In this document: piece by piece, positions 33,060 to 43,545 of the stretch | Position numbering within the stretch: the stretch's first letter is position 1 | Layout: each line of letters opens with the position of its first letter | The notes under the pieces: generated by a model | The model's database searches: none | What the model was told of the DNA's origin: nothing | Seen by the model: the letters and a program-made list of their open reading frames with translations, nothing else | Origin: Brevibacterium ihuae | GTDB taxonomy: Bacteria; Actinomycetota; Actinomycetes; Actinomycetales; Brevibacteriaceae | Length of the DNA: 64,000 nt | NCBI RefSeq assembly: GCF_900184225.1 | Contig: NZ_FXWZ01000003.1 | Coordinates: 1,367,684 to 1,431,683 of the forward strand | Reading direction: 5' to 3' | Made by a program: the position numbers and the translations under genes

Positions 33060-34073
33060 TCAGCGGCCGAGGTCGCGGCGGAGGAAGCGGATGATTCCTG
33101 CCGCCCACACGAGCGCGAGCAGTAGGAGCACCCATAGGGGAGCGGCCGACCAGCCCTCGGCGAGCGGTTCGTGGCCGTAGGCCCAGCGGTACGGCGACAG
33201 ATCGAGCATCCAGGCAGTGTCCTCGCTCTGCGACCCCACGGCGTTGAGCAGGTAGGACCCGACGACTACCGCCGCGCCCGCCCCGGTGGCCGCGACCCGG
33301 CGTCCCGTGGCCGCGCCGCCCGCCAACGCTGCGCACCCGGCGAGGACGAGGAGGAGGAAGTACGAGGTCCCCGCCGCGAGGATCCCGGTCGTCTCGAGCC
33401 CGAGGTCGCCCGGACCGTCGAGCACCGCCATGACGAGCGCCGCGGTCGCGGCGAGCGCGAGGCAGCGGACGACGACCGCCGCCGTCGCCTGCAGGACGTA
33501 GTCGAGGCGGGAGATCCCGTGGGAGAGGTGGAGCTCGAGGTCCCCGGCCTCCTCCGGTCCCGCGATCGCCTTCGTTCCCCAGCCGATCGCCGCGACCGAC
33601 CTCACCGCGAACCCGAGGAGACCGAGGAACGTCGCCTGGACGTATCCCGCGCCCGACGAGAGCGCGGCCGCTCCGCCGATGGCGTTGAGGATCTCCGGCG
33701 GGAACGACTCCATGAGGGCGGTGTCGACGGTGAGGGCCTCGGCCATGGAGCCGTAGAGCGCGAGGTAGAGCGTTCCGATCCCGGCGATCGCGAGGCACCA
33801 CAGGAGCAGCGCCCGCCACCCGTTGCGCAGAGTGAGGCGGAGCAGAGCGAGGGGTGCAGCTCGCCGAGCGGCATCACGGTGGAGGCGCTCCGAACGTTCG
33901 TGGGCGGCACGCCGGGCGGTTCCGGCTGGTGCCGACGGCTCATTCGAGGCCGGTGGCCCGCCCTGTTCCGTCGTCCCACCCGGCGTCAGCCCCCCGCCGG
34001 TCCCCGGCGTCCCAGCGGTGACGCGGGCCTCGGCGGCGGGGGTGCTGTCCTGGGTGAAGTGTCGATCGCTCAT
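33060..34073 (-). CDS. ABC-2-type permease (drug/antibiotic exporter type)
   Basis: A 337-residue membrane protein with about six helices beginning at residue 83 (GWRALLLWCLAIAGIGTLYLALYG). The N-terminal 80 residues are low-complexity and cytoplasmic. It resembles one half of the polyketide-antibiotic ABC exporters, in which the full permease usually has about twelve helices. It overlaps the ATPase gene upstream by four bases. Because that ATPase is interrupted by an integrated element, this transporter is probably not functional in the present chromosome. Confidence 0.8.
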   Translation of the reverse strand: MSDRHFTQDSTPAAEARVTAGTPGTGGGLTPGGTTEQGGPPASNEPSAPAGTARRAAHERSERLHRDAARRAAPLALLRLTLRNGWRALLLWCLAIAGIGTLYLALYGSMAEALTVDTALMESFPPEILNAIGGAAALSSGAGYVQATFLGLLGFAVRSVAAIGWGTKAIAGPEEAGDLELHLSHGISRLDYVLQATAAVVVRCLALAATAALVMAVLDGPGDLGLETTGILAAGTSYFLLLVLAGCAALAGGAATGRRVAATGAGAAVVVGSYLLNAVGSQSEDTAWMLDLSPYRWAYGHEPLAEGWSAAPLWVLLLLALVWAAGIIRFLRRDLGR

Positions 34074-34872
34074 GGCTGCTCCCGGTAGAGATCGAGCACC
34101 GTGTCCTCGAGATCGCGCTGCCGGAACGTGAAGTCGACGACGTCGAACGCGGAGAGGAGGGCGACGACCCGGTCGGCCTCGACGGACCCAGGGACCTGCC
34201 CGGTCACCTCGACGATCCCCGCGGCGAGCTCGCGGGTGCTCAGACCTGCGGCCACCTCGGCGCCCAACAGTCGCTCTGACTCCCTCGCGAGGAGCTCACG
34301 GTCGGGCTCGCGGAGGAGCGCGCTGAAATCGTGTCCGGCATCGCGGCGGAGGTCGGCGACGGAGGCCTCGCGCACGAGGCGTCCGCGGTTGAGAACCGCC
34401 GCGTGCTCGGCGATGTGCTCGATCTCGCCGAGCACATGGGAGGACAGGAGGACCGTCGCGCCGGTCTCCGCCGCCTCACGGGTGATCGTGAGGAACTCGT
34501 GCTGGAGCAGCGGGTCGAGGCCCGAGGTGGGCTCGTCGAGGATGAGCAGCTCCGGTTCGTGGATGAAGGCCTGGATCACGCCGAGCTTCTGCTTGTTGCC
34601 CTTCGACAGCGTGCGGATCCGCCGGTGCGGGTCGACGCCGAGGCGCTCGCACCACGCGTCGATCTGCCCGATCGCCGCAGGGGCATTGAGCCGGCAGAAG
34701 AACTCGAGGACCTGCCGCCCGGTCGCCGTGCCGGCGGCGGTGAGCTCGCCCGGCAGGTAGCCGAGTCGCCGGCGCAGTGCCGGGCCGCCGGAGCGCGGGT
34801 TCTCGCCGAGGACCCGGATGCTCCCGGTCGTGGGGCGCAGGTAGTCGATGAGCAGCCGCATCGTCGTCGACT
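34070..34872 (-). pseudogene. 3' fragment of ABC transporter ATPase split by the integrated element
   Basis: This fragment begins in the middle of Walker A: native sequence starts at the Lys of KSTTMRLLIDYLRPTTG. It carries the Q-loop region, the signature-like LSKGNKQKLGVIQAFIHEP, Walker B ELLILDEPTSGLDP and the C-terminal drug-ABC domain. The missing 5' portion lies 8.3 kb away beyond the element. Joining 43325-43190 to 34872-34070 gives 939 nt, exactly 313 codons with no frameshift. The fragment could be read from a TTG in the element at 34915, but without the P-loop glycines it cannot bind ATP normally. Confidence 0.93.
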
Positions 34873-34894
34873 TGTCGACGTGTCGGGTTTGACC
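34851..34894 (+). other. attL of the integrated element
   Basis: The left junction is at TTG 34872-34874. Bases up to 34872 belong to the host ABC ATPase and those from 34873 to the element. The element-derived arm ends in TGACC at 34890-34894. Together with the arm at the right end it forms an imperfect inverted repeat (13 of 21 positions) whose centre falls exactly between the two T's. This is the layout expected for serine-integrase attP with a TT crossover dinucleotide. Confidence 0.85.
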
Positions 34895-34926
34895 GGCGTA
34901 CCTACCAGGCAACAAGGGAGGTCGTC

Positions 34927-36378
34927 ATGGACGGCACAACAGCAAGCAACGGCGTGGAGCAGGTGGTGGTGTACCTGCGCATCAGTGAGGATCGTACCGG
35001 TGCGGAGGCCGGGGTCGAGCGGCAGCGGCAGGACTGCCTGGACATGTGCGCTCGGCTCGGGATCACCGATCCGGCGATCTTCATGGACAACGACATCTCG
35101 GCCTACTCGGGCAAGAAGCGCGCCGGCTACCTCGACTTGTTGGAGCGGGTGAAGCTGGGGCCGTCGCGGATCGTGGCGTGGCATGTGGATCGTCTCTACC
35201 GTCGCCCCCGCGAGCTGGAAGACCTCATCGACCTCGTGGAAGCCCACCCGATCCGCATCGAGACCGTCAAGGGCGGCGCGTTCGGCCTGAACACCCACGA
35301 GGGCAGGTTGATGGCCCGGCAGCTCGTCGCGATCGCCTCTTACGAGTCCGGGCACAAGGCCGACCGCATCCGCCGGGCGAATCAGCAGAAGGCCGAACGT
35401 GGTGACTGGCACGGCGGGCCGAAGTACGGGTACGGCATCGGCGGCGTCCTCATCCCCGAGGAAGCAGCGGTCATCCGGGAGATGGCCGACCGGTTCCTCG
35501 CGGGCCAGTCGGTGCGGCAGATCACCAGGTGGCTCAACCGCGACGACGGCCCGACACCGCCGTCGAAGGGGAAGAGCCGGTTGAACGTGTGGCACGAGAG
35601 CACCGTCGGCTCGATCCTGTGCTCGGCACGCATCTCCGGGCAACGGGCCTACGAACCGGCCTCCAAGACGACAGCGACGTGGGAGCGGCGGGACCGGGCG
35701 ATCCTCGGACCGGGGAACTGGGAGGCGATCATCACCCCCGAAGAGACGATGCGTATCCGGGCGGTCTTCAACCACCCCGACCGGCGCGTGGGCCGCTCCT
35801 CCAAGAGCCTCCTCGCTGGGCTGATCACCTGCGCCAAGTGCGGCAACACCCTCGTCTCCTCGGGTCTCCACCGGGGCGAGACCTCCATCGGGAAGCGACG
35901 CTTCTACCGCTGCCTGCCACTCCCCGGAAGGCCCGAGCGGGGCGGACTCGTCGTGTCCGCCCACGGCATCGAGACACTGGTGAGCGAGGCCATGATCGCG
36001 CGCCTGGCCGCGACCACAATGCCCGCCACCGCGCCGGGTCAAGATGCGGGAGTGTTTGCGGCGATGGAGCAGATCACCGCCGCGAGGCAGCGCATGGAGG
36101 ACATGGCCCGCGACTACGGAGCCGGGCTGCTCTCCCGCACGGAGCTACACGCGGCGAAGACCGCCGCCACCGCGACGATCAGCAACGCCGAACTCGTCCT
36201 CGGGCGCAACGCGAAGTCCTCGGCGTTGAAAGGCATACCCATCGGCGACGAAACCGCGCTGCGGCACGCCTGGGATCAGGAGTGGTCGATCCCGCAGAAG
36301 CGAGCGATCATCGCCGCCCTGGTGGACACGCTCGTCGTCAAGCCCGCAGAACCGGGTGTCAAGCCCTGGGTTTGGTAG
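34927..36378 (+). CDS. Large serine integrase/recombinase, C-terminus probably trimmed by IS3
   Basis: Site-specific recombinase of 483 residues. The catalytic domain begins VVVYLRISEDRTGAEAG with the nucleophilic serine at residue 20, and carries the Arg-rich VDRLYRRPRELEDLIDLV region. The recombinase domain (about 170-280) and a zinc ribbon (CAKCGN near 303 with a later YRC) follow, with a helical C-terminal part. It begins 54 nt from the attL crossover, with AAGGGAGG at 34914-34921 as ribosome-binding site. The stop codon TAG (36376-36378) coincides with the IS3 terminal TAGAGGC. The native protein therefore probably extended further, perhaps 10-15 residues. Confidence 0.9.
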   Translation: MDGTTASNGVEQVVVYLRISEDRTGAEAGVERQRQDCLDMCARLGITDPAIFMDNDISAYSGKKRAGYLDLLERVKLGPSRIVAWHVDRLYRRPRELEDLIDLVEAHPIRIETVKGGAFGLNTHEGRLMARQLVAIASYESGHKADRIRRANQQKAERGDWHGGPKYGYGIGGVLIPEEAAVIREMADRFLAGQSVRQITRWLNRDDGPTPPSKGKSRLNVWHESTVGSILCSARISGQRAYEPASKTTATWERRDRAILGPGNWEAIITPEETMRIRAVFNHPDRRVGRSSKSLLAGLITCAKCGNTLVSSGLHRGETSIGKRRFYRCLPLPGRPERGGLVVSAHGIETLVSEAMIARLAATTMPATAPGQDAGVFAAMEQITAARQRMEDMARDYGAGLLSRTELHAAKTAATATISNAELVLGRNAKSSALKGIPIGDETALRHAWDQEWSIPQKRAIIAALVDTLVVKPAEPGVKPWVW

Positions 36379-36398
36379 AGGCTTCTTTTCTTGGTTTC

Positions 36399-37332
36399 CT
36401 ATGCGGCCACGCCTGTAGTGGTCTGCTGTTTGATCCAATCAGAATGCGCCTCGATCGGCGGCCGGTAGTGCAGCGCCGAATGCAGTCGGACGTGGTTGTA
36501 CCAAGCCACCCACTTCGACGTCTCGGCCATCACTTCGATCACTCCCGACCACTCCCGACCACTCCCGCCGGTCGATCAGTTCGGCCTTGTACACCGAGTT
36601 CAGCGCCTCGGCCATCACGTTATCGAAGGAATCGCCCCGCGAACCCACTGATGCCACGATCGCAGACTCGGCCAGCGTCTCGCCATAGCGAATCGAGCGG
36701 AACTGGACTCCGCGATCCGAGTGGTGAACGAGCCCGGATACATCGTGCCCGGCCCGGTACTTCGCCGCCAGAGCCATCGTGAGCGCGTCCCGGGCCAGGG
36801 ATTCACGCATATGGTTCGTCACCTGCCAGCCGACGATCTCGCGATGGAACACATCGAGGATGAACGTCGTGTACACCCACCCCGAGCGCGTCGGCACATA
36901 GGTGATATCGGCCACCCATAAGCAGTTCGGTGCAGGCGCGGTGAACTCCCGCTCGACGAGGTCCTCCGGGCACTCCTCGGCTCTGGCCGATGCCGTCTTG
37001 GGACGTTTGCGTTTGCGCCGCACCCCATCGATGCCCAGTTGGCGCATCAAACGCTCGACCGTGCAGCGGGCCACCGGCCCGAACCGGTCGGCGTGATCAC
37101 GGTTGATCGCTTTCCACATCTTGCGCACTCCATAGCAGGAGTAGTTCGCTTCGTAGATGTCCCGGATGACGACCATGAGATCGCAGTCCCGAATAGCCCG
37201 GGCCGAGGGCCGGCGCAGTTTGTACGCGTAGTACGAGCTCACAGCGATCCGTGCAGCAGTCCCGCGCAGGACCCGCACGATCGGCTCGACTCCGAACTCG
37301 TCACGATTCTCGTCGATGAAGTCGACGATCAC
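36399..37332 (-). pseudogene. IS3-family transposase OrfB, frameshifted near the 3' end
   Basis: Integrase-core (rve) transposase. The DDE residues are in CLWVADITYVPT (Asp), LVHHSDRGVQF (Asp) and MAEALNSVYKAELI (Glu). A 10-bp unit is tandemly duplicated at 36541-36560. It shifts the frame after EWSGV, so the present reading ends at 36439 with about 45 unrelated residues. Dropping one copy restores a normal C-terminus (VAWYNHVRLHSALHYRPP) and a stop at 36399. The DDE triad precedes the shift, so residual activity is possible but unlikely. Confidence 0.88.
36541..36570. repeat. 10-bp tandem duplication inside IS3 orfB
   Basis: ACTCCCGACC occurs twice in tandem (36541-36550 and 36551-36560), followed by the related ACTCCCGCCG. 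Removing one copy restores the transposase frame. Confidence 0.9.
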
Positions 37333-37381
37333 CTTGATGGGCGGTCGAGCTCCGCGATGCTCCTATGTCAAGTTGGATCGC

Positions 37382-38482
37382 TCAGGCGGCCATGAGCGGC
37401 ATCAACGACGCAGGATGTTCGATCGTCGACGGCCCCTCCAATGGAGCACCACCCTCGGGCGTCTGGGTGACAGGGGCCAGGTCGGCCCTCTGCGCGGCGT
37501 AGACGCGATCCGAGAGTCGACGTCGTAGGAGCCGCAGCGCCTCTTTGCGCGTCTTGCCGGCGGCAATGAGCTTGTCATAGTAGGTGGCGCCTTCCGCACC
37601 CATCCGGATCTGAGTGAGAGCAGCCATGTGCAGGGCGGTATTGATCGTGCGGTTCCCTCCACGCGAGAGTCGAACGCGGACCTTGTTGCCTGACCAGACT
37701 GGGATCGGCGCGGTCCCGTTGAATCTCGCGTAGGCATCGCGGGAGCGGAACCTGGCGATCCCCGCTGTCTCGCCAATGATCATCGCTGCGCCCAGGGTTC
37801 CCATGCCCGGGACGGCCACCAGTGAGGGATGACTGGCCCGCACCAGCCGGCTCAGGCGGCTCTCGAGCGTGTTGATCCTGACGGTCAGCTCGCGAATATC
37901 GACCAGCAGGTCGCGAGCGATCTCGGCGACCGCTCCGTCAGCTGTCGCCAGGTACTCGATCAGCTCGTCCAGGAGGTGGTACCGGCGCAGAGCACGAGAG
38001 GGAATCTCCAGCTCAGGATCGATTTCGTGGAGGAACCAGCGAGCCTTGGACTGCATCGCCGTGCGCCGTGCAACAAGGGTCCTGCGATGGTCCGACAGAA
38101 GCTTGATGTCCCTGGAAGTACCCGGCAGCTCAGCGGTCGGCAAGCCCTCTTCGCGAAGTGCTACCCGGGCCACGGCTTCCGCATCAATAGGGTCCGATTT
38201 GCCGCGTTCCCGGCTGCTGCGCCTCATGCCAGCCATCAACCTGGTGTGCACGCGAACGACTCGATGTCCGGCCTCGAGCAGGTCAGCCTCGAGCCGACGT
38301 GTCAGGTGGCGGCAGTCCTCGACCGCGACGGTGACGGTCTCGAAGCCTTCCAACCAGGTCAAGATCTTTCGATGCCCCACGGCACGTGCTTCGACCGTGA
38401 GTTCCTTGATTCTCCGGCCCACCTCGTCCACCGCGACGAGCGTGTGCCAGTCCTTGTGAGCGTCGATACCGATGACAGTCAT
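37382..38482 (-). CDS. IS110-family DEDD transposase
   Basis: A 366-residue transposase that looks intact. The N-terminal RuvC-like domain shows the DEDD residues in MTVIGIDAHKD, TVAVEDCRHL and GKSDPIDAEAVARVAL. The C-terminal Transposase_20 domain has VPGMGTLGAAMIIGE and the catalytic-serine region WSGNKVRVRLSRGGNRTINTAL. IS110 enzymes are RNA-guided recombinases that use a bridge RNA from the non-coding end. The gene lies close to the downstream end of the element (37358), leaving only 24 nt. Confidence 0.92.
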   Translation of the reverse strand: MTVIGIDAHKDWHTLVAVDEVGRRIKELTVEARAVGHRKILTWLEGFETVTVAVEDCRHLTRRLEADLLEAGHRVVRVHTRLMAGMRRSSRERGKSDPIDAEAVARVALREEGLPTAELPGTSRDIKLLSDHRRTLVARRTAMQSKARWFLHEIDPELEIPSRALRRYHLLDELIEYLATADGAVAEIARDLLVDIRELTVRINTLESRLSRLVRASHPSLVAVPGMGTLGAAMIIGETAGIARFRSRDAYARFNGTAPIPVWSGNKVRVRLSRGGNRTINTALHMAALTQIRMGAEGATYYDKLIAAGKTRKEALRLLRRRLSDRVYAAQRADLAPVTQTPEGGAPLEGPSTIEHPASLMPLMAA

Positions 38483-38696
38483 GACAGTCCCCTTCCCAGT
38501 CCGGTACTGCGCGAGCTGCGGTGCCGAACGCGGACGGGCACGCCTCAGTTGGGCAGTCGAACCAGCAGGCTCCTATCAGGCCACGCCCACTTCCAGCACC
38601 GCGGGTCCCGGAGAGACGGCACATCGCGGACAAGCTACGAAAGCAGCGAATAAACGAGCCAGCCCCGCCGGGATACCCTCATTCTGGTACTGACGC
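38483..38696 (-). ncRNA. Probable bridge-RNA locus of the IS110 element
   Basis: The only sizeable non-coding end of this IS110 copy lies upstream of its transposase. In IS110-group elements such as IS621 this is where the bridge RNA, with its target-binding and donor-binding loops, is encoded. The segment is GC-rich with several potential short stems. I did not identify the loops by eye. The call rests on position and family. Confidence 0.4.
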
Positions 38697-38978
38697 GAAG
38701 AAAGCCGATGCTCTGCGCAGGATCTCGTTCGCTCGCCTGGCTTCGGCCAGCTCCGCCCGCAAGCGTCGGTTCTCCGATTCCAGATCCACAGACTCCGACG
38801 GTGTGATCCTGCCGGATTCCTTGTGCTTCCGCACCCACACGCGCAAGGTCTCCTTACTCAACCCGAGCTCTTTCGCGACCCGAGTAATCGAGCCGTTGGC
38901 AGTCGCGGGATCGGCCTGAGCGTGAATGACGAGCTCTACTGCACGAGCCCTGAGCTCGTCGGTGTACTTCACTGGCAT
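38679..38978 (-). CDS. IS3-family transposase OrfA (HTH), 3' end displaced by IS110
   Basis: A 99-residue HTH_Tnp_1-type protein starting MPVKYTDELRARAVELV. A leucine-zipper-like segment (LESENRRLRAELAEARRANEILRRASAFFA) precedes the break. The last residues SVPE and the stop are supplied by IS110. The native end, ELDRPSR, is found beyond the IS110 copy at about 37340. OrfA and OrfB are therefore physically separated, and OrfAB frameshift fusion cannot occur. Confidence 0.88.
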   Translation of the reverse strand: MPVKYTDELRARAVELVIHAQADPATANGSITRVAKELGLSKETLRVWVRKHKESGRITPSESVDLESENRRLRAELAEARRANEILRRASAFFASVPE

Positions 38979-39013
38979 GAGAGAAACTCCTTCTTCCAAT
39001 CTCCCTGCCTCCA

Positions 39014-40965
39014 TTATCCCCGGGGCGATTCACGGTGTGCCTGCGACCTCGGTCGCCGCACTCGTCTACGCGCATGGGTGGCGATGGAACGACGACGGCG
39101 TATGGACACGACTCGCCCCCGGCGACCTCGACCCCGACACCGGCAGTATCTACAGCGGCCCGCCGCGCAATGCGGTACTTACTCGGGGCGTGCGGGTGAT
39201 CGTGGATGAGGCCGGGATGCTCGTCCAAGACACCGCCCACGCACTCCTGACCGTCACCGCCGAGGCGGGCGCGTCGGTCGCGCTGGTGGGCGACCGGGCA
39301 CAGTTGCCCGCTGTGGGTCGTGGCGGGGTACTCGACATGGCCGCGCAGATCAGGGGCCGTACCTATGACATGACCGAACTCCACCGCTTCATCGACCCCG
39401 AGTACGCGGCACTGACGTTGGCGATGCGTGACCGGGAGCACCCCGGCGACGTGTTCGACCGCCTCGCCGCGATGAACTTCGTGACTCTGCACGCCGACGA
39501 TGATGCGGCCCGCGAGCACATCACAACTCACGCCCACGACGGCGAGGCGATCACGGTTGCCACGAACGACGAGTCCGCCGAGTTGAACGAGCGCATCCGT
39601 GCCTGTCGTGTCGAGCGTGGGGAGGTCGACGACACCGCGACGGCGACTGGCAGCGACGGTCTGAGCATCGGTGCTGGTGATCTGATCCAGACGAGGAAGA
39701 ACAGCAGCGACCTTGGCGTGGCGAACCGGCAACAGTGGATCGCGCAACGCGTCACCGACGAGGGCACCGTCTACGCGCGAGAGATCGGCAGTGAGCGGAA
39801 GCACCTACGCACGGTGGTTCTGCCGAGTGAGTACGTGGCCGAGCACGCGCACCTGTCGTATGCCGCGACTGCCTACGGCGTGCAGGGCGCGACCGTCGAT
39901 GCCTCGCACACGGTGTTGTCGGACGCGACGAGCGCGGCAGGTGTCTATGTCGGCATGACCCGAGGCCGCGAGCAGAACCGCCTCCACGTCGTCGCGGGGA
40001 ACCTCGCGGAGGCTCGGGCGCAGTTCATCGACGCGATGCAACGCGACCCTGCCGACCGCGGTCTCGACCACGCCACCGCCCAGGACGTTGAGGCCGTGCG
40101 CGGCCTCGTGGCGGATGGCCCTGTTCGGCTCGTCAGCGACGAACTCGCCAGACTCGACAAGGAAGCCGAGCGTGCCCACCGGCAGGCGGAGCGGTGGGAG
40201 GAAGCCGCCGCGCGCCTCGACGCCCAGCGCGCCGCGCACCGAGCCGAGGACGACGAGGACACCGCCGTACTCCGCAGGGCAGAGGACGAGGCGGTGGGCC
40301 TCCGCGCCAAGGTCGCTACGCAGCTGACCATGCAGGCCGAGACGGACGGTGCGGCTTACCTCGCCGCCATCGAGACCGAGGCGGCCGCGAACGCGCGCCT
40401 CGCGACGGTGGGGCGGTTCGGCAGGCGCAAGGCCCGCGCCGAGCACCACACCGCGACCGAACAGACCCGCACCGTCCGGGCGCAGGTCCGCTACGTCTGG
40501 GATGCCGAGCCGCCCCGCACTCCCGAAGCGCTCCCTGCCTGGGCGGCGCAGGCAGCAGCGCGCCGAGCCGAGGGTGATCCCCGCGTGAGTGACGCCGGCC
40601 GCGCCGTCGAGACGGCACACGCCGATCAGAAGGTGACCCAGCAGCGACACCGGCGTGAGCGCATGGCATTGCTGCTCGGCGAGTTCGGGGCCGAGCAAGC
40701 CCGCCGCGACCAGTTCGGCATGCGCGCGGTCAACCCGCACCGCAACGCCGACGACGCTCACCGACGAGCCGCGCTGATCCGCGCCGAGGCCGACGAACTC
40801 CGCAGCCTCCCGTTGACCGACGCCGCCCGGCGCATCGAGACCAACCGCGCTCAGCAGAAGCAGACCCGGCAGCAGGCCGGGCAGCGGACACGCCAACTCG
40901 ACCCGTTCGAGCGCGAACCGCAGCGCGACAGCCCACACCGGGAGCGGCCGACACGTGGCCTCTGA
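39014..40965 (+). pseudogene. MobF/TraA-type relaxase-helicase, 5'-truncated by IS3
   Basis: What remains is the helicase half and the C-terminal tail of a conjugative relaxase. The first native residues IIPGAIHGVPATSVAALVYAHGWRW follow the position of Walker A, which is lost together with the whole relaxase domain. Walker B is seen as VRVIVDEAGM, with LVGDRAQLPAVGRGG as motif III and TAYGVQGATVDASH...GMTRGRE as the late helicase motifs. The last 250 residues are a charged coiled-coil. An ATG in IS3 at 38926 could start translation, but nicking activity must be absent. Confidence 0.9.
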
Positions 40966-41598
40966 TCAGGCGAGCCGCCAGTGGCCGACCTCTCGTAGTA
41001 CTACGCGTGGTACACCGTATCGGTGGCAAGCTGACCGAGGTCGTAGTGCTTCATGTTGCCCGCCCAGTACTGCAGCCGCTGCCACGCCGCGCTCAGGGTG
41101 CGGTCGCGCCGGACGGCCCTGCCGTGCCATCTGACGGGCACACCGCCAGATGAGACGCAGGTGCTGATCGGGCGCCCACCGGACCGCTGCGCGCCACCGC
41201 CCGAACCCCCGCTCACCTCTTGAGTCGGGGCTCGCTGCGTTATCGCCCGAATGGAACCGTGCACACTCGCGAGCAGACAAGGACATGGTCCTCATGGATC
41301 AGTCGCTCAGCACTGCATGAACTCGCCAGTTCTACTCTGTTCTGCCACAGAAACTGTGTGTCGCACCTCGGATCCTACGTGTTCATGGACTCGTCTCGTC
41401 GCCATGCCGTCATGGATCCATCGATCGTGGTTCCTTCTTTGTTCTTTTAATGCACATCTGACCTGGGCCTTTATCCATCGTGTTCGCGCGGCTGTGCGTC
41501 GTATGCGCGCATGCATGGAAACGCCACGCCACGGACCTTCTTGCCATATCCCGTCGCGGCAGGTACTCTCGAGAGTCCACAAGTGTTAGGAGTGCTGC
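40966..41598. other. 633-bp region without a supported gene inside the element
   Basis: The first 250 bp can be read on the minus strand (41001-41264) as an 87-residue frame ending LSAAWQRLQYWAGNMKHYDLGQLATDTVYHA. It resembles nothing I know and may be a remnant. From about 41270 to 41580 the DNA falls to roughly 50% G+C. It contains several scattered CATGGA-type words (for example TCATGGATC at 41291 and 41410). It probably holds the promoter of the downstream cargo pair. Confidence 0.5.
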
Positions 41599-42240
41599 AT
41601 GGACGTGAGCGAGACGCTCAAGAAGGCGTGGACTGCCGTCGAGGATGCCGGTCTGCCCGAGAATATTCAGGGAGTTGCGTTCCGCGAAGCGGTGCGATTG
41701 CTCGTCCCTACTCAGGGAGGTGCGGCTGCGCCTGCCGCCGCACCGCGTACGTCTGGCCAGTCGGGGAAGTCTGGCGCGACGAGCGGGTCCACCGGGAGCG
41801 GCGCGAGCGGCGGGGGCTCCAACGGCGACGGGTCCAAGATCACCGAGGCTGAGAGCACGATCCTCGACAAGGTCGAGCAGCACACGGGCGTCTCCCGCGA
41901 AAAGCTGGAAGAACTGGTTCACCTCGACGACGGGGTCCTGAAGGTCAGCCTCCCCGGCATCAAGTTGGGCAAGAACAACGCCGACAAGACGCGGGCGATC
42001 GCGCAGATCCTCACCATCGTGCGCGGCTTCGGTCTTGACGAGAACGAGACGTCGCTGGAACTGGTGCGGGCTGAGGCCCAACGGCTCAAGTGCTACGACT
42101 CGGCGAACTTCTCGGCGCAGGTCAAGGTATTGAGCGGCTACCTCATCATCGGTAGCGGCACCAACCGCCACATCCGGGCGAAGTCAGGTGGCATCAACGG
42201 GTTCCCCGCGTTCGTGGACAGCGTCCTGGGCGAGTCGTGA
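41599..42240 (+). CDS. Cargo protein 1 of the element, unrecognised, Gly/Ser linker
   Basis: A 213-residue protein I do not recognise. Residues 1-40 form a predicted helical region (LKKAWTAVEDAGLPENIQGVAFREAVRLL). Residues 45-88 are a Gly/Ser/Thr/Ala-rich linker. The C-terminal 125 residues (from ITEAESTILDKVEQHTGV) form a compact mixed domain that includes KTRAIAQILTIVRGFGLDENETSLELVR. No catalytic motif is visible; the layout suits an adaptor or nucleic-acid binding partner. AGGAG at 41588-41592 supports the ATG. The stop overlaps the next start by four bases (GTGA), so the two proteins are made together. Confidence 0.75.
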   Translation: MDVSETLKKAWTAVEDAGLPENIQGVAFREAVRLLVPTQGGAAAPAAAPRTSGQSGKSGATSGSTGSGASGGGSNGDGSKITEAESTILDKVEQHTGVSREKLEELVHLDDGVLKVSLPGIKLGKNNADKTRAIAQILTIVRGFGLDENETSLELVRAEAQRLKCYDSANFSAQVKVLSGYLIIGSGTNRHIRAKSGGINGFPAFVDSVLGES

Positions 42241-43007
42241 CCGCGCTCGACGTTCGCGTCCAGCAGGGCTTCATCGCAGCGGGCATTCCCGCGGAACTGG
42301 TGAAGGAACTGCTGGAGGCGTTCGCCGAAACGAAGCGGCGGTTCTACCGGGACGACCTGCGGCCCTCCGAAATCGAGGGCGCTCGCTTCTCAGAAGCCGT
42401 GTTCCGGATCCTCGAGTGGGCGACGACGCAGCAGTACACGCCGCTCGGCGGCAACCTGCCCAAGGTCCCGACTCTGATGGGCAAGTTAGAGCAGGCTACG
42501 GCTGCGCCTGAAAGCGTACGCTTCCACATCCCGCGCACGCTCCGTCTGATCTACGACGTGCGGAACAAGCGGGACGTGGCGCACCTTGGCGACGGCATCG
42601 ACCCGAACCAACAGGACGCCACGATGGTCGTTCGGAATATGGAGTGGGTGCTCGCCGAACTTGTGCGCCTCCACCACAACGTGTCCGCCACCGAGGCACA
42701 CGGGATCATTGTCGACCTGGTGTCGAAGGACGTCCCGCTGATCCAGGTCTTCGACGGCTTCCCGCGCGTGCTGAAGCAGTTGAAGGCATCGGACCACATG
42801 CTCGCCTTGCTCTACTGGCGCGGTGCCGAGGGTGCAACTTTCACCGAGTTGCAATCCTGGGCGAGGGCAGCGATGCGAGCCAACCTGAAGCGCACCCTGG
42901 ACACGCTGGACGCCAAGGATCTGATCCACCTCAACGGTGACCGCCACGTTCTGACTAGCCTCGGCGAACGGGACGTCGAGCAGCGCAAGTTGCTCGAACC
43001 ACAGTAG
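42237..43007 (+). CDS. Cargo protein 2 of the element, HEPN-like motif with C-terminal winged helix
   Basis: A 256-residue protein. A helical region (residues 10-60) is followed by IPRTLRLIYDVRNKRDVAHLGDGIDPN at about 102-128. This contains RN-x5-H (Arg, Asn and His), the pattern of HEPN ribonucleases and Abi_C-like proteins, Rx4-6H with a polar residue after Arg. The remainder (FTELQSWARAAMRANLKRTLDTLDAKDLIHLNGDRHVLTSLG) looks like a winged helix. The partner and location at the attR end of a mobile element suggest toxin, defence or RNA-cleaving function. This is inference from motif and context; the family is not identified. GTG start at 42237. Confidence 0.65.
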   Translation: MTALDVRVQQGFIAAGIPAELVKELLEAFAETKRRFYRDDLRPSEIEGARFSEAVFRILEWATTQQYTPLGGNLPKVPTLMGKLEQATAAPESVRFHIPRTLRLIYDVRNKRDVAHLGDGIDPNQQDATMVVRNMEWVLAELVRLHHNVSATEAHGIIVDLVSKDVPLIQVFDGFPRVLKQLKASDHMLALLYWRGAEGATFTELQSWARAAMRANLKRTLDTLDAKDLIHLNGDRHVLTSLGERDVEQRKLLEPQ

Positions 43008-43167
43008 GTGGTTCCCCGGAGCCCATGACGCATGGTTATACCGACCCTCTCGTAGGCTCCCGCCGTTCTAGATCACTATCTGCGGCGGTCCGGCGCTGGG
43101 GAGGCCGGACTCGATCTACGCGCTCGACACGTTCATCGCAGCACCCGCAGCCACCTCCGATTAATAG

Positions 43168-43211
43168 GGTCAGAAACTGCACGTGGTATTGCCCGCTCCG
43201 TTGGGGCCGAT
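43168..43211 (+). other. attR of the integrated element
   Basis: The right junction is at TTG 43189-43191. The element arm begins GGTCA at 43168-43172 and matches, as an inverted repeat, the arm at the left end (TGACC at 34890-34894). From 43190 rightwards the sequence is host ABC ATPase, reading GLIGPNGAG on the minus strand. The 180 bp between cargo protein 2 and the junction contain no gene. Confidence 0.85.
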
Positions 43212-43325
43212 GAGTCCGACGACTGCTCCAGCGGGCACCTGCCAGCTCAGCGAGTCGACGGCGGTGACGGTGCCGAAGCGCTTCGTCACCCCCTCCATGT
43301 CGAGTGCCGCTCCGGAAGAGGTCAT
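43190..43325 (-). pseudogene. 5' fragment of ABC transporter ATPase split by the element
   Basis: Encodes the first 45 residues of the ATPase, MTSSGAALDMEGVTKRFG to GLIGPNGAG, ending inside Walker A. After the junction the element supplies NTTCSF and a stop. The matching 3' fragment with its permease gene lies at the other end of the element. The ATG at 43325 is taken because it gives the usual length to the first strand; an ATG 48 nt upstream is also possible. Confidence 0.92.
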
Positions 43326-43424
43326 GGGGCCATTGAGCATCTGTCCGGGAGCGAAGTCAAGGGCGCGGCGCACGGTGCCGGCCCGCGCCCCAGGTGCGTC
43401 GCCCGGCGGTCGCTCTTGACCCGC

Positions 43425-43545
43425 GTCGAGCTGTCACTCATGCTCGATTCCCGCATTGAGCTGTCACTCATGCTCGAGATTCGGCGCGAATATCGAGCAC
43501 AAAGGGCAGGTCGATGGTGGGATCGAGCAGAAACGGCAGGTCGAT
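43425..43545. repeat. Array of four 23-bp repeats in two opposed pairs
   Basis: Units at 43425-43447 and 43455-43477 are in one orientation and those at 43493-43515 and 43523-43545 in the other. Within each pair the period is exactly 30 bp. The first pair shares GAGCTGTCACTCATGCTCGA. The second pair is related to it as the reverse complement (common pattern TCGAGCA ... CAG-S-TCGA). The array ends 14 bp from the MFS stop codon. It resembles REP/BIME-type intergenic repeats and could fold as a cruciform. Confidence 0.8.

Follow-up and report, generated by a model that had tools for sequence, protein, structure and literature searches.

We describe an integrated element that interrupts the gene of an ATP-binding cassette (ABC) exporter ATPase in a 64,000-nucleotide stretch of the 3.1-Mb Brevibacterium ihuae genome (C3:1367684-1431683 of the host genome, G000; hereafter the window). 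We consider, with a probability of about 0.86, that this is a decayed element of the integrative and mobilizable element (IME) type, whose large serine integrase would recombine its attachment site attP with an attB site in DNA coding for the Walker A motif (P-loop). This interpretation is based on sequence comparison of the broken gene, the element ends and the targets of related elements. The positions of all features are given in Table 1.

The N half of the ATPase gene begins with the ATG at 43325 on the minus strand and runs to 43191, followed by AA and TACCACGTGCAG; past the residues GPNGAG, its frame reads AA and TACCACGTGC and meets a stop soon after. The C half opens with AA and GTCGACGACG at 34873 and ends at 34070. 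In five homologous loci (L096, L098, L102, L140, and L141; open frames of 313 to 573 aa), the counterparts of both halves lie on neighbouring codons in one frame, and the break therefore falls at the Walker A lysine codon. These data bear out the sequence-only reading of the window, according to which a serine-integrase element splits an ABC ATPase inside Walker A and the joined gene has 313 codons (45 + 267 + stop, 939 nt). The N half alone had no Pfam match, and the NCBIfam names for the C half fell far below the cut-off among the best 25 of 166 matches; we therefore call the protein an ABC-2 type exporter ATPase and nothing narrower.

The element cuts the gene after the AA of the lysine codon. 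In the close group of relatives defined below, 13 of 14 loci, the window included, have an exact copy of the integrase-side (INT-side) arm GGTCAAACCCGACACGTCGAC and the adjoining AA. C precedes AA and G or C follows it in 13 INT-side junctions, and in 14 distal junctions G, C or A precedes AA and T follows it; the crossover is therefore fixed at AA, which is the TT of the plus strand that had been proposed as the crossover from the window alone. Joined together, the element ends form a dyad around AA with 13 of 21 positions, the same count as that made earlier, and 20,000 shuffles gave a mean of 5.3, with a fraction of 0.00015 reaching 13. Ten other paired att sites have dyads of 14–16 of 21, so that all 11 pairs lie at 13–16 against shuffle means of 5.0–5.9; the ends of one pair, G069, are on two contigs (L041 and L128) and might be two insertions. 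The integrase has the Resolvase and Recombinase domains (PF00239, 78.2 bits, cut-off 23.3; PF07508, 49.6 bits, cut-off 21.1) and a zinc beta-ribbon score just under the threshold (PF13408, 24.2 bits, cut-off 25.3), with no DUF4368 Pfam match at E 0.001. By the Resolvase and Recombinase domains, by the 2-bp core common to attL and attR, and by the quasi-palindromic attP, it is predicted to be a large serine integrase.

An exact and near search with the distal arm of the window found nothing in 61 loci or in viral contigs, and a single match in 16 genomes (G062) was rejected, as it lies inside an unrelated reading frame. The distal arm of the window is diverged, and the ends were located by the consensus of its relatives. 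This distal-arm pattern, AATACCACRTGTNGNGTTTGACNC with at most three mismatches, occurs in 12 of 14 genomes, compared with a single one of the 14 when the pattern was reversed as a control. It was derived from ends already seen in relatives and the window, so that the arm counts are partly by selection; the distal ends new to the pattern are those of G060, G064, G068, and G066:C30, and the window's arm has three mismatches to it.

A scan of genome contigs for the integrase gave 30 loci: a close group with 93–95% identity (78% for L040 and L041), a more distant group with 65–72%, and fragments with 59–85%. In most of the relatives compared, the element arm lies just upstream of the integrase and is followed by the C half of a broken gene. 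L042, L055, and L058–L061 were excluded from the site counts because no INT-side arm was found or the integrase fragment alone matched. In the integrase tree, which has many weak inner branches, L040 and L041 stand nearer the distant group (92/99); "close group" therefore denotes shared arms rather than a clade. The element is neither a listed phage nor a listed plasmid: relatives among phages and plasmids were all below 60% identity, and viral contigs gave a single fragment at 33%.

Counting a site when at least one end was seen, we found that elements with the window's arm occupy the Walker A lysine codon at 14 of 16 sites. Twelve of the 16 are P-loops of TraA/TrwC relaxase-helicases (G029, G058, G061, G062, G063, G064, G065, G066 twice, G069, G070, and Brevibacterium mcbrellneri L043), those in G062, L043, G070, and one of the two in G066 being seen at one end only. 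One site is the P-loop of HrpB (L040 and L132; HrpB_C, 165 bits), and one is the ABC gene of the window. The C halves of nine TraA targets compared are 45–90% identical to each other, and the TraA N halves in G066:C20 and G069 look alike. The expectation that P-loop codons would provide sites in many hosts, with similar integrases beside P-loops, agrees with the targets of the relatives, but the usual targets are TraA or CpaF/TadA, and an exporter ATPase is the target at only one of the 16 sites.

In the more distant group, 12 junctions could be read (L044–L052, L054, L056, and L057). Ten are in ATPases of the CpaF/TadA type, L056 is in a relaxase, and L047 was left without a family because its target is only 18 residues long. 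The T2SSE domain was scored directly for L050 and L051; T2SSE halves start or end at the P-loop (profile positions 155–157) in eight genomes (L044, L045, L046, L048, L049, L050, L052, and L054), and the target of L057 is 71–75% identical to those of L054 and L051. On the N side, junctions at P-loops were found in seven of nine stretches, plus a Gordonia relaxase, and no junction was found in the other two (L177 and L167). Both CpaF halves lie on one contig some 76–86 kb apart in G434, G435, G436, and G441, and on different contigs in L165 and L178. Except for L052, the distal arm starts with AATAC and the cut is after the AA of the lysine codon. In L052 and L179, the orientation is the reverse of the others, with the INT-side arm joined to the CpaF N half and not to the C half; for L052, this had suggested that the core of the more distant relatives might be GA, an idea that was dropped because their distal arms start with AATAC. 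That P-loops are used on both sides of the integrase tree would be consistent with an ancient trait of the group as a whole.

It should be noted that near-identical elements occupy targets with 48–53% identity. The elements of L044 (Compostimonas suwonensis) and L054 (Microbacterium rhizomatis) are equal in 11,737 of 11,739 bases from the core on, and their CpaF-type targets share 79 of 150 residues and have the P-loops GAGGSG and GATHTG. Likewise, the elements of L033 (Microbacterium ihumii) and L035 (Leucobacter weissii) are equal in 11,482 of 11,488 bases, and 293 of 608 residues agree between their TraA targets. Between families, the C halves of ABC and TraA agree in 52 of 222 aligned residues (23%, against a mean of 27.7% after shuffling), that is, with no likeness beyond shuffles; HrpB and TraA share 59 of 223 residues and CpaF and ABC 37 of 112, both figures being without a shuffle control.

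We scored the sites with a matrix trained on TraA alone (nine sequences from the N side and nine from the C side; ABC, HrpB and all other sites were excluded) against a background of 15,604 AA positions in 385,204 bases (the window and 15 loci, not the whole genome of the host). With its halves scored separately and summed, the ABC site reaches 15.4 bits, compared with 9.8 for the best background position and 36–52 for the TraA training sites; the five top background positions are P-loops. The host genome shows no TrwC relaxase at E 0.001. Since the ABC site resembles a TraA site and the host has no such relaxase, we read the insertion as the use of a look-alike: as judged by these scores, the ABC gene most probably represents a secondary site used when the usual one is absent, this order of preference being one that we infer.

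On this basis, the following course of events can be proposed. The quasi-palindromic attP (arms about GTCAAACCC...GGGTTTGAC, 2-bp core AA) would meet an attB consisting of Walker A-coding DNA, and the integrase would cut after the AA of the invariant lysine codon. The usual attB of window-arm elements would be the P-loop of a TraA/TrwC relaxase-helicase, presumably belonging to other conjugative or mobilizable elements. In the Brevibacterium host without a TrwC relaxase, the element would have entered the ABC ATPase, whose P-loop DNA is strongly TraA-site-like, and the ATPase would thereby lose its function. At a later stage, an IS3 insertion with an IS110 inside it would have deprived the integrase of its C-terminal residues and the relaxase carried by the element of its first half.

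Several observations weigh against this scheme. Two of the 16 sites are not P-loops: L131 (G060:C3:492941, Microbacterium lacticum, both ends seen), where the site is followed by a frame that may resemble seryl-tRNA synthetase, and L130 (G066:C30:12689, one end). The G060 site scores −42.2 on the TraA matrix, with 8,313 of the 15,604 background positions equal or higher, and the HrpB site 1.0, with 13 positions equal or higher; the P-loop preference is therefore not absolute. In three genomes with more distant relatives (L137, L143, and L144), the sequence that precedes a distal-type arm AATACCACATG... is common to them but is no P-loop (GATTGCAGCG or TATTGCAGCG). L042 is the sole exception among the 14 close-group loci in having no INT-side arm. 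An uninterrupted close ABC orthologue at an empty site was not found in 57 genomes of the genus or 396 of the order, in which the best relatives of the C half are 44% (E 1e-40) and 50% identical (E 1e-70), respectively.

We considered whether the targeting is specific only to a gene, TraA or CpaF, so that the ABC and HrpB insertions would be occasional mistakes that say nothing about the motif. The predominance of TraA among window-arm sites (12 of 16) and of the CpaF/T2SSE type among more distant sites (10 of 12) speaks for this, yet two of the four non-TraA window-arm sites, ABC and HrpB, are at the same P-loop codon, and this codon is common to relatives with different main targets. Moreover, the TraA and CpaF targets diverge by up to half of their residues, even the P-loop positions of CpaF vary for near-identical elements (GAGGSG and GATHTG), and P-loops supply the five best background scores of a matrix trained on TraA only, which makes a purely gene-specific mode unlikely. 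The opposite view, of an integrase that needs little beyond AA, with a P-loop bias arising from selection or sampling, would account for the two non-P-loop sites, one of which has no resemblance to the TraA site. We regard it as very unlikely, since sampling would hardly place 14 of 16 sites at a single codon of the same motif, even though some TraA targets are close kin (C halves up to 90% identical), and since TraA, CpaF, HrpB and ABC proteins differ in role, so that a common selection is not obvious.

The precise, in-frame split also recalls developmentally excised elements, in which excision works as a regulated switch and would here restore the exporter ATPase; the best NCBIfam score of the integrase is indeed for XisF, at 89.6 bits far under the cut-off of 375. 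Given the IS3 damage to the integrase C-terminus and the relaxase, and given that the related elements examined occupy other genes, this is the least probable of the explanations, and integration of an IME-type element at Walker A-coding DNA accounts better for the data.

The decay of the window copy is evident from comparison with its relatives. DNA homology ends at about 36340-36370 and restarts within the relaxase at about 39033, a pattern consistent with a deletion adjacent to the IS3 insertion, whose best inverted ends match at 14 of 20 positions. The integrase tracks its relatives up to residue 477 and diverges beyond; among eleven C-termini compared, ten relatives end in RFRPERVELTFKA or nearly so and the window differs. 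By the sequence record, the last residues of the integrase and the first half of the relaxase appear to have been lost at the IS3/IS110 insertion. The window relaxase has TraA_Ti as its best NCBIfam name, below the cut-off. Having its own integrase, without the native last residues, and no complete relaxase of its own, the window copy is filed as a decayed IME relative only. The sequence-only reading was thus right about the element but had overlooked the damage by IS3 and IS110, the changed end of the integrase, the truncation of the relaxase and the fact that an ABC gene is an atypical target.

Relaxase frames inside the elements of relatives have 1,230 residues (G061 and G063) and 1,305 residues (G064); those in G029 and G065 have 301 and 256 residues, respectively, which suggests damage or a frameshift there. 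On the opposite strand, a 288-aa protein of no familiar family adjoins the integrase in L037 (11809-12675, minus), L039 (11849-12715, minus) and L035 (11887-12753, minus); the L039 protein had no Pfam match, and its weak match to TRIP13 was the only one among six proteins scanned with PADLOC. Upstream of the ABC gene, the window contains short repeats resembling ATCGAGCATGAGTGACAGCTC and CATCGACCTGCC at about 43416-43545.

Table 1. Features of the window around the split ATPase gene (positions are those of the window).
Feature	Position	Strand	Remarks
N half, ABC-2 exporter ATPase	43191..43325	-	45 codons, ends GPNGAG; counterparts of N and C half adjoin in five loci
C half of the ATPase	34070..34873	-	starts KSTTMRL, 267 codons + stop; PF00005 from profile position 24; 50% identical relatives
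ABC-2 permease	33060..34073	-	start overlaps ATPase stop; PF12679 35 bits (cut-off 27.2)
Integrated element, 8.3 kb, decayed	34872..43190	.	bounded by the two AA cores
attL	43168..43211	-	target N half, AA (43190-43189), distal element arm TACCACGTGCAGTTTCTGACC; relatives have the arm with changes
attR	34852..34895	-	INT-side arm GGTCAAACCCGACACGTCGAC, AA (34873-34872), target C half
Large serine integrase (predicted)	34927..36378	+	483 aa, last residues replaced; L036 homologue 494 aa
IS3-family insertion	36363..39026	-	ends approximate, at deletion; orfA 38679-39014, orfB 36439-37332; NF033516 238 bits (cut-off 160); PF01527
IS110-family transposase	37382..38482	-	between IS3 orfA and orfB; NF033542 169.9 bits (cut-off 140)
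TraA-type relaxase-helicase of the element, C-terminal part	39033..40965	+	PF13604; P-loop and N-terminus lost
213-aa protein, presumed cargo	41599..42240	+	no Pfam, PADLOC or NCBIfam family
256-aa protein, presumed cargo	42237..43007	+	no Pfam, PADLOC or NCBIfam family; one weak Natronomonas plasmid match

Elements of the two groups are also found nested. On contig C211 of Gordonia otitidis (G070), a window-type distal end lies in a TraA P-loop (10011), and a window-like relaxase, which lies inside a window-type element, is interrupted in its P-loop by an element of the more distant group (L056 and L139) with ends near 14.8 and 35.9 kb. The close-group integrase on this contig matches only from residue 31, in two segments, and its INT-side arm was not found there.

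Conserved motifs such as P-loops are known to be occupied by inteins and homing elements, and inteins splice out and spare the protein. Like inteins, the window element exploits an invariant motif of a protein as a lasting place of insertion; unlike them, it breaks the protein. In streptococci, serine-integrase IMEs have been described inside the conserved genes traG, snf2 and maff2 of integrative and conjugative elements (ICEs) of the Tn5252 type (PMC5357655, PMC5704250). The likeness includes the serine integrase, the relaxase, the breaking of a conserved gene of another conjugative element and the very short direct repeats; the streptococcal integrases are described there by target gene, and here the common feature is a P-loop codon across NTPase families, in actinobacteria and with a TraA-type relaxase. 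Tn1806-like ICEs enter hsdM, snf2 with a methyltransferase domain and an Eco57I methylase gene and nest in another ICE (PMC12942858). Related serine-integrase elements in several different genes and nesting are thus common to both systems, but the available part of the source describes triple serine integrases, GG repeats and methyltransferase genes and names no common cut motif. Among multi-targeting large serine recombinases, one cluster can use several attB genes, one example having a TT core; DUF4368 is present in 63% of that clade, and the sites of the example are relaxed, their ends being rich in T and A (PMC10083194). Unlike that clade as portrayed there, the window integrase has no DUF4368, and the sites here consist of GC-rich DNA coding for P-loops. 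Serine-integrase elements in conjugation genes are therefore already known; in open-access titles and abstract openings, with subscription papers and preprints outside the scope, we found no serine integrase reported to target P-loops across NTPase families.

A wider reading can be offered tentatively, with the odds somewhat against it. One group of actinobacterial serine integrases may have evolved to home on a protein motif instead of a gene, so that DNA of the Walker A lysine codon could be a general landing site in any GC-rich host. Window-arm elements might mainly break a rival TraA while carrying their own relaxase, and breaking it could be of advantage if the invader's relaxase took its place, since the transfer machinery of the host element could then serve the invader only; branches of the family may also invade each other, as in Gordonia otitidis.

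Taken together, our results provide a computable landing rule for a family of mobile elements, namely DNA that codes for one of the most widespread nucleotide-binding motifs, which could explain host-independent integration. They also supply natural att pairs for GC-rich actinobacteria and suggest how mobile elements may disable the relaxases of their competitors.

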